Below are positions 4,746-58,844 of a DNA stretch of 64,000 nt, in pieces. Every line of letters starts with the position of its first letter. The first letter of the stretch is position 1. Made by a program: the position numbers and the translations under genes. Source of the stretch: Nocardia sp. NBC_01730 (GTDB taxonomy: Bacteria > Actinomycetota > Actinomycetes > Mycobacteriales > Mycobacteriaceae); NCBI RefSeq assembly GCF_035920445.1, contig NZ_CP109162.1:5332001-5396000 (forward strand). Direction: 5' to 3'. The notes under the pieces were generated by a model. The model ran no database searches, was not told the origin of the DNA, and saw only the letters and a program-made list of their open reading frames with translations.

Positions 4746-5467
4746 AATGGGTGCTCACCCCGGACGAGTTCACGCATGTCTGGGCAAACGAAACAAGCCT
4801 GGACCGGAGGCCCTATCCGATCAACATGGTCCCGTCGGCCATCGTGCGCACCGCATCGGAATATCGCGCACTACGCCTGCCGCAGCGGTTCGCCCGCCAA
4901 GCCGACCCCGACCTGGCCGCCGCGCTGATGGTCTGCGCCCGCACCGACGCGACCACCATCACCATCTCTGGCGAGCGCTCCACCCTCCCGCGCAATGGAG
5001 ACGACGCCGACCCCGAACGGATCCTCGCCTTCGCCGCGGTGGTGCACAACCACGCCGGCATCCTGGTCGCCACCCCGGACAAGGTGACCGTGCTGATGTG
5101 CCATGCGCGCGCCCTCGGCGAACGCCTGGTGCAGATCATCGGGTCAGCCCAGCCGGGCAGGCTCGAACCGATGCGCGAGCCACAGGACGCGGTGCTCGGC
5201 CCGGACCACAGGGAATCATTCGCCACCAACGGTCACTGCGGCGCAGTCCGATTCCGCCAGACCCTACGTAAACCAGTCGACGGCCGCGGCTTCATCACCG
5301 TCACCGTGGAACCGGACAACCCCATGTCGCCACCGACCCGCCACCGCACCTGGCTGGATATCACCGGGGATGGGCGCTACATGCTGACCACGGCACACGA
5401 CCTCATCCTCGCCCCGGTCTCCGATGCGGATTTCGCCACTCAGTTGCAACGCTTGGCTTGTATCTGA
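4742..5467 (+). CDS. EspG-family type VII secretion chaperone
   Basis: EspG proteins are cytosolic chaperones that bind the tip of PE-PPE dimers and deliver them to an ESX secretion channel. This 241-residue protein opens with WVLTPDEFTHVWANETS, the usual EspG N-terminus, then carries a beta-rich middle (ITISGERS; GILVATPDKVTVLMCHARAL) and ends in HDLILAPVSDADFATQL. It starts at GTG 4742, overlapping the stop of the PPE-like gene by four bases. The module is an orphan here, since no eccC, mycP or other ESX gene lies nearby. Confidence 0.82.
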   Translation: MKWVLTPDEFTHVWANETSLDRRPYPINMVPSAIVRTASEYRALRLPQRFARQADPDLAAALMVCARTDATTITISGERSTLPRNGDDADPERILAFAAVVHNHAGILVATPDKVTVLMCHARALGERLVQIIGSAQPGRLEPMREPQDAVLGPDHRESFATNGHCGAVRFRQTLRKPVDGRGFITVTVEPDNPMSPPTRHRTWLDITGDGRYMLTTAHDLILAPVSDADFATQLQRLACI

Positions 5468-26381: not shown

Positions 26382-27290
26382 TCAGGCCGAGAGTCGTGCC
26401 GGATGCTCCTTCTGCCAGTGTTCGGCGATATCGATGCGGCGGGTGATCCAGACCTGGTCGTGCGATTGCACATGGTCGAGCAACCGCTCCAGCGCGGCGG
26501 TGCGAGCGGGACGACCGACCAGCCTGCAGTGCAGCCCGATCGACAGCATCTTCGGACTGCCCTCCGCACCTTCGCGATACAGCACGTCGAAGGCGTCGCG
26601 CAGATGCGCGAAGAACTGCTCGCCGGTGGGGAATCCGGCGGGCGAGGCGAAACGCATGTCGTTGGTGTCCAGGGTGTAGGGCACCACCAGATGGTCCCGG
26701 TCGTGCACCCGCACCCAGTACGGCAGGTCGTCGGCGTAGGAGTCCGAGTCGTAGACGAACCCGCCGTGCTCCACCACCAGCTCACGGGTGTGCGGCGAGT
26801 CGCGGCCGGTGTACCAGCCGAGCGGCGCGGCGCCGGTCAGTTCGGTCAGGATGCGGACCGCCTCCGCCATGTGCGCGCGTTCGGTGCCGCGGTCGGCCAG
26901 CTGGTAGGACTTCCAGCGCAGGCCGTGGCAGGCGATCTCGTGGCCGAGATCGCGAAAGGCGGCCACCGCCTCGGGGTTTCGCTGCATAGCACGGGCAACG
27001 GCGAATATGGTCAAGGGCAGCTCGCGCCGATCGAAGACGCGAAGCACCCGCCACAGCCCAGCACGGGAGCCGTATTCGTAGAGCGATTCCATGCTCATAT
27101 GGCGGTTCGGAAACGCTTCCGCCGGAGTCATTTCCGAAAGAAATGTCTCGGAGTGCGCGTCACCGTCGAGGACGCTGTTCTCGCCACCTTCCTCGTAGTT
27201 GAGCACGAACTGGACCGCGATCCGCGCGTCACCCGGCCATTTCGGGTCGGGTGGCCTCGGGCCGTAGCCGACGAAATCCCGTTCGTTCAT
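26382..27290 (-). CDS. puuE: Allantoinase, PuuE type
   Basis: Opens the allantoin ring to allantoate. This 302-residue protein belongs to the polysaccharide-deacetylase-fold allantoinases, not the amidohydrolase type. Signatures are RDFVGYGPRPPDPKWPGDARIAVQ at the N-terminus (FVGYG), FVLNYEEGGE, YGSRAGLWR, the CHG metal-site motif (IACHGLRWKSYQ) and WYTGRDSPHTRELV. The ATG overlaps the stop of the last 26-codon micro-ORF (ATGA) and uses the same GAGAGGACAC ribosome site. It is the last gene of the purine operon. Confidence 0.92.
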   Translation of the reverse strand: MNERDFVGYGPRPPDPKWPGDARIAVQFVLNYEEGGENSVLDGDAHSETFLSEMTPAEAFPNRHMSMESLYEYGSRAGLWRVLRVFDRRELPLTIFAVARAMQRNPEAVAAFRDLGHEIACHGLRWKSYQLADRGTERAHMAEAVRILTELTGAAPLGWYTGRDSPHTRELVVEHGGFVYDSDSYADDLPYWVRVHDRDHLVVPYTLDTNDMRFASPAGFPTGEQFFAHLRDAFDVLYREGAEGSPKMLSIGLHCRLVGRPARTAALERLLDHVQSHDQVWITRRIDIAEHWQKEHPARLSA

Positions 27291-27367
27291 TCGGTGTCCT
27301 CTCTGGCATGAGCGGGAGGCCCTCCGTGGTTACGCAGGCTGCCTCCTCCGGGCCTTGACCCGCTCAT
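27287..27367 (-). CDS. Micro-ORF A5 (26 aa), coupled to puuE
   Basis: Same as A1-A4 except that the last residue is Glu instead of Ala, because the last bases lead into puuE. Its TGA overlaps the puuE ATG. The puuE start is not in a 12-bp stem, unlike A2-A5. Confidence 0.5.
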   Translation of the reverse strand: MSGSRPGGGSLRNHGGPPAHAREDTE

Positions 27368-27444
27368 GCCGTGTCCTCTCTGGCATGAGCGGGAGGCCCT
27401 CCGTGGTTACGCAGGCTGCCTCCTCCGGGCCTTGACCCGCTCAT
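27364..27444 (-). CDS. Micro-ORF A4 (26 aa)
   Basis: Identical to A1-A3. Coupled at both ends by ATGA overlaps. Confidence 0.5.
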   Translation of the reverse strand: MSGSRPGGGSLRNHGGPPAHAREDTA

Positions 27445-27521
27445 GCCGTGTCCTCTCTGGCATGAGCGGGAGGCCCTCCGTGGTTACGCAGGCTGCCTCC
27501 TCCGGGCCTTGACCCGCTCAT
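27441..27521 (-). CDS. Micro-ORF A3 (26 aa)
   Basis: Identical to A1 and A2, in the next reading phase because 77 is not a multiple of three. Coupled at both ends by ATGA overlaps. Confidence 0.5.
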   Translation of the reverse strand: MSGSRPGGGSLRNHGGPPAHAREDTA

Positions 27522-27598
27522 GCCGTGTCCTCTCTGGCATGAGCGGGAGGCCCTCCGTGGTTACGCAGGCTGCCTCCTCCGGGCCTTGACCCGCTCAT
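27518..27598 (-). CDS. Micro-ORF A2 (26 aa)
   Basis: Identical to A1. Start and stop overlap A1 and A3 as ATGA. The start codon lies in the 12-bp stem formed with the end of A1. Confidence 0.5.
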   Translation of the reverse strand: MSGSRPGGGSLRNHGGPPAHAREDTA

Positions 27599-27675
27599 GC
27601 CGTGTCCTCTCTGGCATGAGCGGGAGGCCCTCCGTGGTTACGCAGGCTGCCTCCTCCGGGCCTTGACCCGCTCAT
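27595..27675 (-). CDS. Micro-ORF A1 (26 aa)
   Basis: Starts MSGSRPGGGSLRNHGG and ends PPAHAREDTA. Its ATG overlaps the allantoicase stop and its TGA overlaps the start of A2, both as ATGA. Basic, Gly/Pro-rich; no known family. Confidence 0.5.
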   Translation of the reverse strand: MSGSRPGGGSLRNHGGPPAHAREDTA

Positions 27676-28649
27676 GCGCCGAGCTCCCCGTACAGCCGTA
27701 GCCGCGCGAGCCCGCCGTCGGGATAGATGTCCAGGCGAACCTCCTCCACCGACGCGGCCATCGGCGCGATCGGAAAACGGTGCCTGGTGTCGGGCAGCAG
27801 CGCGGTACGCGGCAACAACTCCAGCTCGGTGCCGTCGCTGGTGCGGCCGGTGAGCCGGGCCGCGCCCGGACTGTTGCCGAGGAAGTAGGAGGTGTCGAGC
27901 TCGGCGAGCCGGATCATTCCGGGCCCGGCCAGCCGGATGTGCACCCAGTCGTTGCCGTCATCCCTGCGACGGGCGGTCTCCCAGCCGTCGCCCATGCGCC
28001 TGGCCAGTCCCGGATAGAGCAACTGATTGGGCGAGCTGTAGAAGCGATTGGAGCAGTCCAGCACCAGCGCGCCGTTCTCCAGCGCGGCCAGATCCAGCGG
28101 GCCGATGCCGAGCAGTCTCCGGTCGGGCCTGCCCTCGCCGTGCACCCGCAGCCTGGCCACGCCGCCGTCGGGGTGCATGGTGAGTTTCACATGCGTCCAG
28201 CGCTTCTCACTCTCGACGGTGAAAAGGTTGCGGCTGTCTCCCACGACCGGGGAACGGTCGATCAGCACGACCCAATCATCGTGCGCGGCAATGGAATCCG
28301 CAGGCAGATAGTCATCGATCTCCAGCGCGGAGACCGAGACCGCAGGCGGGTAGTTGCCCGTGAACCAAGCGGTGTCGACCACGATCCCGCGGATCACGCC
28401 TGGCACGCCGAGCCGCACGATCGCCGAGTCGTCACCGGGCCGTCCGCGATGTCTGCGAGTCTCCCAGCCGTCGTAGATCTGCCCCTTGTGCCCGAAGGTG
28501 GACGGCCGGTAATCGGCCGGGCCCGGGTTGATCAAATTCTCCTTCTCCGCGAAGAATTCGTCATCGGCCCAGATCACCGCGCCGCCGAGCGGACGAACCG
28601 CCAGATCCGGCAGCAGCGTGAACTCTTCGTTCTCTACGAGATCGCGCAT
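27672..28649 (-). CDS. alc: Allantoicase
   Basis: Hydrolyses allantoate to ureidoglycolate and urea. It has 325 residues made of two tandem jelly-roll repeats, as in the family. Repeat one has DDSAIVRLGVPGVIRGIVVDTAWFTGN; repeat two has NDWVHIRLAGPGMIRLAELDTSYFLGN. Each ends with a PDGG-ARLR(V/L)-GE strand. An early DEFFAEKENLINPG segment is also typical. ATG 28649 overlaps the stop of the last 23-codon micro-ORF (TGATG) behind AGGAGGTGTG, and its own stop overlaps micro-ORF A1. Confidence 0.95.
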   Translation of the reverse strand: MRDLVENEEFTLLPDLAVRPLGGAVIWADDEFFAEKENLINPGPADYRPSTFGHKGQIYDGWETRRHRGRPGDDSAIVRLGVPGVIRGIVVDTAWFTGNYPPAVSVSALEIDDYLPADSIAAHDDWVVLIDRSPVVGDSRNLFTVESEKRWTHVKLTMHPDGGVARLRVHGEGRPDRRLLGIGPLDLAALENGALVLDCSNRFYSSPNQLLYPGLARRMGDGWETARRRDDGNDWVHIRLAGPGMIRLAELDTSYFLGNSPGAARLTGRTSDGTELELLPRTALLPDTRHRFPIAPMAASVEEVRLDIYPDGGLARLRLYGELGA

Positions 28650-28720
28650 CACACCTCCTGTGTTCTGCGGGACACCCGCACCCGGTCGGCGCCGATGAGC
28701 GCTGCGCGATTGTGTCTCAT
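28649..28720 (-). CDS. Micro-ORF B3 (23 aa), coupled to allantoicase
   Basis: Identical to B2. Its TGA shares one base with the allantoicase ATG, and its last codons contain the AGGAGGT ribosome site of allantoicase. Confidence 0.5.
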   Translation of the reverse strand: MRHNRAALIGADRVRVSRRTQEV

Positions 28721-28791
28721 CACACCTCCTGTGTTCTGCGGGACACCCGCACCCGGTCGGCGCCGATGAGCGCTGCGCGATTGTGTCTCAT
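28720..28791 (-). CDS. Micro-ORF B2 (23 aa)
   Basis: Begins MRHNRAALIG and ends VRVSRRTQEV. Overlaps B1 and B3 by one base each as TGATG. Strongly basic. Confidence 0.5.
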   Translation of the reverse strand: MRHNRAALIGADRVRVSRRTQEV

Positions 28792-28910
28792 CACACCTCC
28801 TGTGTTCTGCGGGACACCCGCACCCGGTCGGCGCCGATGAGCGCTGCGCGATTGTGTCTCATCACACCTCCTGTGCCGTACGGGACCGCACCGTTCGAGT
28901 GGCCGTTCAT
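28791..28910 (-). CDS. Micro-ORF B1, 39 aa (16-codon head plus repeat unit)
   Basis: ATG 28910 overlaps the stop of the aldolase gene (ATGA). A head MNGHSNGAVPYGTGGV is in frame with the first repeat unit (MRHNRAALIG to VSRRTQEV). ATG 28862 behind AGGAGGTGTG is an internal alternative start. The stop overlaps B2. Confidence 0.5.
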   Translation of the reverse strand: MNGHSNGAVPYGTGGVMRHNRAALIGADRVRVSRRTQEV

Positions 28911-30136
28911 CGTGGCTCCGGCGGAATCGGTGCACGGGCCACCAAGGCGCGCAGGACCGCTTCGGTCAACTCCGGGGCGCCCGAGTCGTCGCGGGCGCCG
29001 CAGTCGATCCCGCGCAGCACGGTGGCGGCCAGCGCTTCCGCGGTGGCCGGCTCGTCCAGCACGCCGCCGCCGCGCCGGTCCAGGTAGGCCCGCAGACGCG
29101 GCACCGCCACGTCGATCGCCGTGCGGAAGAAGTCGTAGGTAGCCAGCCAGCGGGTGACCAGATGGCCGGGATGCATGTCCCAACCCTGGTAGTAACCGCG
29201 TCGCAGCGAGCGGGCGACCAGGCGGTGATGGTTGTGCAGTGCCGCTTCGGGCTCGGCGTCGGGCACGATCTGGGTGGAGCCGTCGCACACCCACACCCCG
29301 GTCTGCGCGGCCGCCACCTGCATGACTGCCTTGGCGTAGTCGGCGGCCGGGTGGTCGAGCGCCTGGTCCGGCGCGGCGACACCGCAGGCGGCGGTGTAGT
29401 CGTAGGTGCCGAAATGCAGTCCGCTGCACCGCCCCTCGGCCTGTCCGATCATCTCGGCTACCGGCGTGGTGCCGTCCGCGGCGATGATCGCCTGCGGACT
29501 CTCGATCTGCAGTTCGAAACGCAGCGCGCCCTCCGCGATGCCGTAGCCACGTTCGAGGCCGGCGCATAGCTGCCTCAGCGCCGTAACCTGTTGCACAGCA
29601 CGAATTTTCGGCACAGTGAAGATGAACCCGTCCGGTACCCCGCCCGCGCTGTCGAGCACCAATTCGAGCGTTCGCAGGGCACGGTGCCGCTCGCCGCCTG
29701 CCAGGCCCTTCATCCGAATGCCACCGGTCGGGCTTCCGGGCCGTCGCGCCCAGGCCGCGAGCACGGCGCCCGCCGACACGGCGGCGCGGTCCTCCTCGAC
29801 GTCGGCGCGGAAGCCGTAGCCGTCCTCGAAGTCGATCCGCAGGTCCTGGACCGGATCCCGCTCCAGCCGTTTCCGAACGTCCGGCAGCGACGCGGTTCCG
29901 TCGAGGGGCGCCAGCAGGTCGAAATAACGGTCGAGTAGCTCGATCGCGGCCGCGCCCCATTCCCGCGGGGTCGCCTCGGTGACCCGATCGGCGGGGACGT
30001 ACACGGTGTGGATCGGCTGTGTTCTGCCGTGCGGCGGCCTGCTGTTCGAGCCTGGATACCTGCGCCGCAGGTCGGCGTCGACCCCGTCGAGCAGCGCCTC
30101 GATCCTGGCGTGGATATTCGCGGGCACTTTGGTCAC
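28907..30136 (-). CDS. HpcH/HpaI-type aldolase family protein in the purine cluster
   Basis: A 409-residue TIM-barrel protein related to HpcH/HpaI aldolase/citrate lyase (the group often labelled DUF6986). Barrel motifs are QDLRIDFEDGYGFRAD (metal-binding Glu/Asp), FELQIESPQAI (catalytic-site Glu), HFGTYDYTAACG and YYQGWDMHPGHLVTRW. Position between xanthine dehydrogenase and allantoicase suggests action on a two- or three-carbon product of purine ring breakdown, perhaps condensing glyoxylate, but this is inference. GTG 30136 overlaps the xanthine dehydrogenase stop (GTGA). Confidence 0.8.
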   Translation of the reverse strand: MTKVPANIHARIEALLDGVDADLRRRYPGSNSRPPHGRTQPIHTVYVPADRVTEATPREWGAAAIELLDRYFDLLAPLDGTASLPDVRKRLERDPVQDLRIDFEDGYGFRADVEEDRAAVSAGAVLAAWARRPGSPTGGIRMKGLAGGERHRALRTLELVLDSAGGVPDGFIFTVPKIRAVQQVTALRQLCAGLERGYGIAEGALRFELQIESPQAIIAADGTTPVAEMIGQAEGRCSGLHFGTYDYTAACGVAAPDQALDHPAADYAKAVMQVAAAQTGVWVCDGSTQIVPDAEPEAALHNHHRLVARSLRRGYYQGWDMHPGHLVTRWLATYDFFRTAIDVAVPRLRAYLDRRGGGVLDEPATAEALAATVLRGIDCGARDDSGAPELTEAVLRALVARAPIPPEPR

Positions 30137-56974: not shown

Positions 56975-57772
56975 TCAGTACCGTCCTGCCTCCGTCCCGA
57001 AGCGCGCGAGCACCAGGTTCTCGACCACACCGACGATCGCGTAGAGCACCACCGAAACCAGCGTCACGATGACGATCGACGCCCACAGCTTGCTGTATTG
57101 GAAGGTCGGGATGGCCCGGATCAGGCTGGCGCCGAGCCCGGTTCCGCTGCCGAGCCATTCTCCGAGCAGCGCGCCGATCAGCGCGCCGGGCACCGAGATT
57201 CGCGCGGCGGCGAACACCGAGGGCAGCGCGGCGGGGACGGCCACCATCCGTAGCCCGGTCCACCGCGATCCGCCGTACGCGGCCACCAGATCCAAGGCCT
57301 GGCGCGGCGCGTTGCGCAGGCCCGCCATGATCATGACCAGGGCCGGGAAGAACACGACGATCGCGGCCATCACCGTCACCCCGGCCAGCCCGCGGCCGAA
57401 CACCAGCACGATGATCGGGGTCAGCGCGACCAGCGGCACCGAACGCAACAGCATCGCCACCGGCAGGAACGTCTGCTCGACGGCGGCGAACGACACGAAC
57501 AGCGCCGCGACCACCAACGCGGCGAGCATGCCCGCACCGAACCCGATCGCCGCGTCTCGCAGCGTGATCTGCAGATCGTCGATGATCGCCTGCCGTGCGG
57601 TGCTCGCATTGGGGGCGGTCACCAGATAGGTCCAGATGTCACCCGGCGACTTACCGACCCGCGGCCCGACCTGCGGGAAAGCCTTCAGGAAGACGTACCA
57701 GATCACCAGCATCAACAGCAGCGAGGTCAACAGCGGGAACAGGAATCGTCCGATCCGTCGCAGCAGTTTCAT
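56975..57772 (-). CDS. ABC transporter permease (BPD_transp_1, SsuC/ThiX-like), second permease
   Basis: A 265-residue inner-membrane permease with about six transmembrane helices. The EAA-type loop reads RQALDLVAAYGGSRWTGLRMVAVPAALPSVFAAARIS. ATG 57772 coincides exactly with the end of the 71-bp micro-ORF array (ATGA overlap with micro-ORF C3), which fixes the start. It works with the other permease as a heterodimer or is an alternative subunit. Confidence 0.9.
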   Translation of the reverse strand: MKLLRRIGRFLFPLLTSLLLMLVIWYVFLKAFPQVGPRVGKSPGDIWTYLVTAPNASTARQAIIDDLQITLRDAAIGFGAGMLAALVVAALFVSFAAVEQTFLPVAMLLRSVPLVALTPIIVLVFGRGLAGVTVMAAIVVFFPALVMIMAGLRNAPRQALDLVAAYGGSRWTGLRMVAVPAALPSVFAAARISVPGALIGALLGEWLGSGTGLGASLIRAIPTFQYSKLWASIVIVTLVSVVLYAIVGVVENLVLARFGTEAGRY

Positions 57773-57843
57773 CGCTCCTCCTGTATTTTGCGGGACACCC
57801 GCACCCGGTCGGAGCGATCAGGCGCTGCGCAATGGTTCCTCAT
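57769..57843 (-). CDS. Micro-ORF C3 (24 aa), coupled to the second permease
   Basis: As C1 except one Glu-to-Lys change (SRKIQEER). The TGA overlaps the permease ATG, and AGGAGGAGCG serves that permease. Confidence 0.5.
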   Translation of the reverse strand: MRNHCAAPDRSDRVRVSRKIQEER

Positions 57844-57914
57844 CGCTCCTCCTGTATTTCGCGGGACACCCGCACCCGGTCGGAGCGATCAGGCGCTGCG
57901 CAATGGTTCCTCAC
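57840..57914 (-). CDS. Micro-ORF C2 (24 aa, GTG start)
   Basis: Same peptide as C1 but starts with GTG. Its AGGAGGAGCG end supplies the ribosome site of C3. ATGA overlap with C3. Confidence 0.5.
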   Translation of the reverse strand: MRNHCAAPDRSDRVRVSREIQEER

Positions 57915-57985
57915 CGCTCCTCCTGTATTTCGCGGGACACCCGCACCCGGTCGGAGCGATCAGGCGCTGCGCAATGGTTCCTCAT
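57911..57985 (-). CDS. Micro-ORF C1 (24 aa)
   Basis: Begins MRNHCAAPDRSD and ends RVRVSREIQEER. The ATG overlaps the stop of the first permease gene (ATGA); the TGA overlaps C2 as GTGA. Confidence 0.5.
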   Translation of the reverse strand: MRNHCAAPDRSDRVRVSREIQEER

Positions 57986-58728
57986 CGCTCCTCCTGGGCA
58001 GTCCACGGAGCGACCAGCCGTGCGGCCAGCGCCACCACCACGTACCCGAGTCCGGCCAGCGCCGCCGCGGCCAGCGCCATCCCCCAGGTGCGCGGCACGT
58101 TGTAGGCGGTCTGCGCTGCGGTCAGCGCCACCCCGATTCCGCTGTCCACGCCGCCGAGGTATTCGCCGATGATCGCGCCGAGCACGGCGGACGGCGCGGC
58201 GATCTTCAACGCCGCGAAAGTGTTCGGCAGCGCCGATATCACCTGCACCCGGTACAACTGCTGCCAGCGCCCACCACCGTAGGCGCGCACCAGGTCGAGG
58301 CTGGTCCGGTCGGCCGATCGCAACCCGGTGACGGTGCCGACCATCGTCGTGAAGAAGCAATACATCGCGGCGAGGAACACCGTCGGAGTTCGTCCGCCGA
58401 ACACGACAAGGATGATCGGGCCGAGCGCGAGCAGCGGCGTGCAGTAGCTCAGGATCGCCAGCTGGGTGGCCAGCGACTCGATCGGCGGGACCAGCACGAT
58501 CAGGATGGCCAATGCGATGGCCAGCCCGTTGCCCCAGACGAACCCCTTCAGCGCGCCGAGCGCGGTGATCCGGAAGTTCGGCCCATACAGCCCCCACCCG
58601 TCGGTGACCATCGTGTGCAGCACCTGCCACGGGCTGGGTATGGTTCCGCCTGCGACGCCGAGCGCCGCGAGTATCCACCACACCACGACCAGCCCGAGTA
58701 CGCCGAGCACACCGCCGAGGCGCTTCAT
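57982..58728 (-). CDS. ABC transporter permease (BPD_transp_1, SsuC/ThiX-like), first permease
   Basis: A 248-residue membrane protein, about six helices, with the ATPase-contact loop RTSLDLVRAYGGGRWQQLYRVQVISALPNTFAALKIA. ATG 58728 is chosen because it overlaps the stop of the 39-codon micro-ORF (ATGA) and has GGGAGGCG upstream. Its own stop overlaps micro-ORF C1. Confidence 0.9.
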   Translation of the reverse strand: MKRLGGVLGVLGLVVVWWILAALGVAGGTIPSPWQVLHTMVTDGWGLYGPNFRITALGALKGFVWGNGLAIALAILIVLVPPIESLATQLAILSYCTPLLALGPIILVVFGGRTPTVFLAAMYCFFTTMVGTVTGLRSADRTSLDLVRAYGGGRWQQLYRVQVISALPNTFAALKIAAPSAVLGAIIGEYLGGVDSGIGVALTAAQTAYNVPRTWGMALAAAALAGLGYVVVALAARLVAPWTAQEER

Positions 58729-58844
58729 TGTGCGCCTCCCTCGCCGCGTCGGATGCACCGCGCGAGCGGGTGCGGGTGCGTGCTCACCCGCTGCCGGCTG
58801 GGCTTACCGTAGCGCAGACAGCGCGCCGGATCGTGGGCGTTCAT
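58725..58844 (-). CDS. Micro-ORF D, 39 aa, between ATPase and first permease
   Basis: Begins [14 protein letters not shown] and ends [11 protein letters not shown]. Its ATG overlaps the ATPase stop and its TGA overlaps the permease ATG, both as ATGA. Same length (39 codons) and same MN-x-H start as micro-ORF B1, with a similar C/G-rich core. Confidence 0.5.

Follow-up and report, generated by a model that had tools for sequence, protein, structure and literature searches.

MIRU-like relay cassettes that may preserve termination-reinitiation between allantoicase and puuE in Nocardia

How can a tandem repeat fill the space between two genes of one operon and leave no base over? The question is raised by a 64,000-nucleotide stretch of the Nocardia sp. 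NBC_01730 genome (the window), in which a tandem-repeat scan found an array of period 77 with 5.1 copies and 99% matches at 27287-27677. The two flanking genes are part of a uric-acid breakdown operon, and the names allantoicase and puuE, which a sequence-only reading had given them, agree with models TIGR02961 and TIGR03212, both scoring above cut-off (Table 1). Each 77-bp unit is an 81-nt ORF of 26 codons that has an ATGA in common with both neighbours; the first ORF starts in the ATGA of the allantoicase stop, the last one stops in the ATGA of the puuE start, and the chain from allantoicase to puuE runs through the offsets 0, 77, 154, 231, 308 and 385. The same reading had described five identical ORFs: five units, the 77-bp period and exact bridging by ATGA were recovered, but only units 1-4 are identical, unit 5 carrying two substitutions at its 3' end and encoding DTE, not DTA. 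In the units of this array the SD-like sequence AGAGAGGACACGGC precedes the next ATGA. Allantoicase itself may start either at GTG 28652 or at ATG 28649.

In our judgement the array is probably a set of MIRU-like relay cassettes, that is, of insertions that would preserve termination-reinitiation between the genes on either side. The window contains two further arrays, of 71-bp units, built on the same stop-start plan. In the one upstream of allantoicase, a single 39-codon frame comes first and is followed by the 71-bp units (chain 0, 116, 187, 258), with GTGATG junctions preceded by AGGAGGT.

Table 1. Features discussed in the text; positions refer to the window, except for those with the prefix C1.
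Feature	Position	Strand	Basis
Family-1 relay array, 5 x 77-bp units	27287..27675	-	tandem-repeat and ORF lists
26-aa ORFs of the array	27595-27675, 27518-27598, 27441-27521, 27364-27444, 27287-27367	-	ORF list
Allantoicase, gene upstream of the array	27672..28649	-	TIGR02961, PF03561
puuE-type allantoinase PuuE, gene downstream of the array	26382..27290	-	TIGR03212 over cut-off
Family-2 relay, DUF6986/HpcH-like gene to allantoicase	28649..28910	-	repeat scan, ORF chain
sORFs of the family-2 relay upstream of allantoicase	28791-28910, 28720-28794, 28649-28723	-	71-bp period
DUF6986 / HpcH-HpaI-like gene, upstream of the 71-bp array	28907..30136	-	PF22484, PF03328
Second family-2 relay array, 3 x 71-bp units	57769..57985	-	chain 0, 71, 142, 213
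Three 71-bp ORFs of the second family-2 array	57911-57985, 57840-57914, 57769-57843	-
ABC-transporter-permease-like genes flanking the second family-2 array	57982-58758, 56975-57772	-	NCBIfam permease models, below cut-offs
Family-3 examples in own genome	C1:4550803, 5291190, 5304441, 6513917

The openness of the window array is by itself not striking in GC-rich DNA: when it was shuffled by dinucleotides with both ends fixed, the chain was still complete in 7.6% of 1000 trials, and in 8% of 100 trials of a smaller run. The stronger evidence is that the same plan recurs across loci, families and species, which also supports the earlier suggestion of a chain of re-initiation events.

Units of both lengths belong to dispersed families. 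The 77-bp query (family 1) was found in at least 40 places of its own genome, with 40 of 53 candidates scored, and the 71-bp query (family 2) in at least 20 (40 of 65 candidates scored). Units of 40-100 bp at many chromosomal loci, partly in tandem, are also a feature of MIRUs. Among 40 genomes, its own included, family 1 occurs in all 24 of the genus and in none of the 16 others. Within the same GTDB family it is present in 31 of 301 genomes, 29 of which are of the genus, while the remaining two are an incomplete genome of another genus and a weak match; in the genus of Mycobacterium aurum, one of 297 genomes gave a weak match. Family 2 is distributed otherwise: of 121 genomes, 11 have a match, spread over 7 of 31 genera and in several cases with E near 1e-4, and three or more genomes of the genus among these 121 have none. 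Six family-2 places were found in G188, a genome of another genus, and at one of these a three-unit 68-bp relay links open frames of 503 and 456 codons; on the reverse strand of the same site a two-link chain is also present, but between short frames. A third family, found in the genome survey, consists mostly of single-copy relay cassettes of the form ATGAGCGAGCG...GGAGCCGAGCG..AGCGAGG.GCAGGCATGA. A composite relay at C1:7375496 consists of a family-1 unit with a family-3-like piece joined to it in frame.

Among the 80 of 192 confirmed loci that were used, the closest named relatives by allantoicase belong to Nocardia. The junction was compared in 46 Nocardia loci, the window and 45 named ones. 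In 31 of them a direct in-frame NTGA overlap joins allantoicase to puuE, and 12 contain inserted DNA of 56-490 bp to the puuE start, which forms a complete stop-start relay in every case (12/12); the remaining three have CTGA as the upstream stop, and no relay was scored in them. Family 1 matches three of the 12 inserts (the window, L081 and L090) and family 3 matches seven, including L090, which matches both. The insert of L094 resembles those of L087 and L091 at 84%, and those of L086 and L089 match neither of these families nor each other at E<=1e-3. The view that the 12 inserts are unrelated sequences was abandoned, with 10 of 12 linked through families 1 and 3 at that threshold, and because the inserts are less diverse than they had seemed by eye, confidence in the relay reading was slightly lowered. 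When each insert was shuffled with its ends fixed, between 7.6% and 93% of the shuffles were complete at this junction and between 43% and 100% at the upstream one, and nine of the 12 allantoicase-puuE inserts stay open also when reversed; as a test of single junctions, fixed-end shuffles are too permissive and constitute weak evidence. The upstream junction, from the HpcH-like gene to allantoicase, comprises 5 relays, 29 direct overlaps, 10 broken and 2 missing cases in the 46 loci, and coupling is therefore looser there, which speaks against the relay reading.

Several loci show other arrangements. In L093, which is counted among the 31 direct overlaps, allantoicase has a C-terminal extension of ~25 codons (around 4858-4935) ending in an ATGA that overlaps the start of puuE, which looks like the fusion of an inserted unit to allantoicase. 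In L110, likewise counted as direct, the puuE frame extends upstream by another 66 nt, and in both L110 (puuE) and L083-L091 (allantoicase) the downstream frame is open back to the upstream NTGA, giving an in-frame N-terminal extension that would also preserve coupling.

A second operon was compared in 30 loci. Its X>Y junction is complete in 30 of 30, seven loci having 1, 2 or 4 copies of a 74-bp unit, four having other short frames and 19 having none; the Y>Z junction is likewise complete in 30 of 30, of which 29 lack the unit, two copies being present only in the genome studied here. Between species, the copy number at the AtuA-like to acyl-CoA dehydrogenase junction is 0, 1, 2 or 4. Such variation at a single junction would suit a translational rheostat, in which ribosomes are lost at each relay step and copy number is selected to set puuE output, and repeat length upstream of M. 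tuberculosis fpg1 is reported to be linked to expression, with mixed strain data (PMC2734929). On the other hand, most of the orthologous junctions examined lack a unit, which suggests that units are tolerated and not needed; the rheostat may be regarded as a possible but rather doubtful explanation.

What is kept in the units can be judged from their reading frames. The 199 family-1 matches, some at overlapping loci, comprise 64 that passed a strict test for bounded relay units and 135 that failed, and yielded 41 distinct units. These read the same core in three frames, as ...ARRRQRSVTTEG..., ...RPGGGSLRNHGG... and ...PEEAACVTTQ..., and therefore the peptide is not what is kept. Moreover, the 77-bp unit of the window differs from the 74-bp unit by indels of -2, +1 and -2 (net 3), so that the interior is read in another frame and the ATGA at either end is retained. 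The usual unit end, ...GAC ACG GCA TGA, comes after a purine run, and an SD-like match of at least 4 bases before the terminal NTGA is present in 29 of the 41 distinct units, vs 22% of shuffles. These findings bear on the proposal that the array is a functional 26-aa peptide family, amplified inside the operon for dose, which had been the other suggestion of the sequence-only reading. Peptides are indeed alike within one frame class (MSGQARRRQRSVTTEG...), and codon position 3 is the most variable in two of the three frame classes; however, position 2 is the most variable in the 77-bp class, and over all classes no consistent third-position excess was found, a test that is weak with so few units. 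Homologous DNA thus yields unrelated peptides in three frames, the compensating indels exchange the internal frame, and in other species the junction is occupied by different sequences that form the same relay. The functional peptide family was accordingly rejected on three-frame use and the compensating indels, and it appears very improbable.

The rules that copies follow in the genome were derived from a survey of 2.456 Mb (28% of the genome) with 1268 co-directional gene pairs, in which genes were called by our own gene caller and start codons are thus approximate. Among gaps of 50-100 nt bounded at both ends by ATGA or GTGA, 21 of 32 have a length of 2 mod 3 (binomial p=1.9e-4) and 15 of the 32 are a single open ORF, whereas in control gaps, whose upstream stop is not NTGA, 14 of 46 are 2 mod 3. 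In gaps of 8-49 and of 101-600 nt within the same 2.456 Mb, no significant excess of 2 mod 3 was found. Orientation follows the genes as well: copies between co-directional genes are sense or antisense in 41/3 cases for family 1, 18/1 for family 2 and 26/0 for family 3, i.e. 85 of 89 in sense over all three families, copies of one array not being independent. Of the 144 copies in total, this count leaves out 19 that lie within called genes and 36 whose flanking genes differ in direction.

In addition, the period of tandem arrays depends on their place. All 15 arrays inside genes have a period of 0 mod 3, and among the 14 that fill a co-directional gap the period is 2 mod 3 in 11, vs an unbiased 10 of 26 for other intergenic arrays (Fisher p=0.022). 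Two of the three exceptions among the 14 filled gaps have CTGA as their stop, where no counted start codon is available, and the third has a period of 73 according to the repeat finder, yet relay spacings of 74 and 74. Within the 11 filled gaps at 2 mod 3, the one at 6351700 is incomplete as a relay and the one at 7351288 has the upstream stop GTAG. In the first 1.656 Mb, 11 of 19 co-directional gaps that contain arrays are complete relays vs 2.7 expected, the other eight being incomplete, while 32 gaps that do not contain arrays are complete vs 31.8 expected. Three 75-bp arrays that overlap family-1 matches (C1:6264433, 6414506 and 6517551) have a period of 0 mod 3 and form no relay, and their adjoining genes stop in CTGA. 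Open single-ORF relays are bounded left and right by ATGA/ATGA in 14 cases, GTGA/GTGA in 4, GTGA/ATGA in 3 and ATGA/GTGA in none (p=0.006); a target-site duplication was not concluded from this, as other gaps show a like tetranucleotide bias (p=0.013).

These rules also bear on the view that the array is an ordinary minisatellite or selfish repeat, whose open relay would follow from GC-rich sequence and a unit length inherited on spreading. High GC does keep frames open, single-link chains are often completed by shuffles, and copies occur in non-relay places too. Placement without regard to stop/start overlap, which the sequence-only reading had named as evidence against itself, was found in part: some copies lie elsewhere between or within genes. 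A mere repeat would not be expected to vary in period mod 3 with its place, to show a significant 2 mod 3 excess in NTGA-stop gaps of 50-100 nt that is absent from the control, or to lie in sense in 85 of 89 cases; this view is therefore thought unlikely.

Slightly less credit still is given to an RNA structure or internal promoter element that acts on the downstream gene. A short GGCCC/GGGCC stem is present in most of the 41 family-1 units, with an alifold z of -4.2 for family 1 vs column shuffles and a z of -1.9 for the fold of a single unit, and promoter activity is reported for the senX3-regX3 repeat region of M. tuberculosis (PMC4213456). In contrast, family 2 gives no fold signal (z -0.2), an Rfam search of the 64-kb window returned no match, and a scan of 27150-29000 for sigma-70-like promoters and terminators, with other promoter types outside its reach, returned neither. 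A structured RNA was set aside on this weak signal in family 1 only and on the empty Rfam result for the window; furthermore, neither structure nor promoter would explain the mod-3 and stop/start rules.

The preferred reading, that of relay cassettes, places the elements beside the MIRUs, which have the same orientation as their neighbouring genes, as do the Nocardia cassettes. MIRUs are described as repeats of 46-101 bp that occupy 41 loci in M. tuberculosis H37Rv (PMC3914561), apparently mobile and inserted at start codons, with an internal ORF coupled at -4 nt that probably limits the effect on the gene (PMC12548453, a 2025 review citing Supply 1997); ETR-D of M. tuberculosis combines 77-bp units with one of 53 bp (PMC2453075), and the senX3-regX3 MIRUs are confined to M. 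leprae and the M. tuberculosis complex (PMC4213456). Both ETR-D unit lengths are 2 mod 3. As in MIRUs such as senX3-regX3/ETR-D/MIRU04, the ORF of the Nocardia unit overlaps both the upstream stop and the downstream start (-4 nt). Moreover, the cassettes occupy what in relatives is a bare stop/start overlap, an empty site. In MIRUs the copy number varies between strains; the counts of 0, 1, 2 or 4 at one Nocardia junction are from a comparison between species. The Nocardia cassettes differ in their host, which is Nocardia and not Mycobacterium, in forming three sequence families and in a short palindromic core. A senX3 primer match was found in none of 396 sampled genomes. The Nocardia elements are filed as MIRU-like and not as MIRU because the host genus differs, and the likeness rests on published descriptions and not on sequence. 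The plan of the array is not new in kind and matches that of MIRUs as presented in PMC12548453. Among the matches listed in the open-licence PMC literature, no description of such elements in Nocardia was found.

REP/RAYT systems consist of short, dispersed, palindromic mobile repeats that flank a Y1 transposase gene. The Nocardia elements are likewise short and dispersed, with a short inverted repeat. The genome has three partial matches to Y1_Tnp, all over cut-off, and the ~3.1-kb loci around them contain no copy of family 1 or family 3, so that a mobiliser of the REP/RAYT type was rejected and no mobilising gene was found at these loci. One of the three matches, a frame of 36 aa at L275 (C1:4637793) that resembles a Y1 transposase, is ~1.5 kb away from a family-2 array.

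How the array may have arisen and may work can be outlined as follows. An element of ~70-80 bp, probably mobile, would have come to sit exactly at the ATGA overlap that joins allantoicase and puuE in relatives, and would then have multiplied in tandem. Each unit would supply a start codon that overlaps the preceding stop, followed by ~25 open codons, and would close with a purine run resembling an SD site and a further ATGA. After ending allantoicase, a ribosome would re-initiate at the overlapping ATG, cross each unit and terminate at the next ATGA, until it reaches the puuE start. Termination-reinitiation is known at ATGA and TGATG overlaps (PMC6728339, PMC10666635); the same overlaps occur at the Nocardia arrays and the same ribosome behaviour is proposed, with the difference that the step, which elsewhere links two genes directly, would here recur in a series of tiny frames made of repeated DNA. 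A distance of ~20 nt almost abolishes this coupling in E. coli and H. volcanii, where overlap or very short spacing is needed (PMC10666635). Because coupling is lost with distance in these other hosts, a non-relay insert of at least 70 bp is expected to uncouple the genes. What is kept, probably by selection for coupling, is the unbroken stop-start relay, with sense units whose length is 2 mod 3, which lack an internal stop and have NTGA at both ends, the peptide being dispensable. Hence the inserted DNA is apparently arranged so as not to cut the path of the ribosome from gene to gene.

A bolder version, which we hold to be rather unlikely, would have several distinct mobile cassette families in Nocardia converge on landing at stop-start overlaps, where the ribosome is kept moving, with slippage in cassette number acting as a heritable dial of protein ratios within operons. 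For Nocardia, the probable meaning of the array is that the MIRU plan exists outside Mycobacterium, in three sequence families. The natural controls that these genomes offer, namely empty sites, period mod 3 by place and three-frame use, separate the case in which the peptide matters from that in which the relay matters. With its 0, 1, 2 and 4 copies, the AtuA-like to acyl-CoA dehydrogenase junction would provide ready-made alleles for serial re-initiation and its cost per step, and tiny ORFs in such relay places may be poor candidates for functional small proteins.
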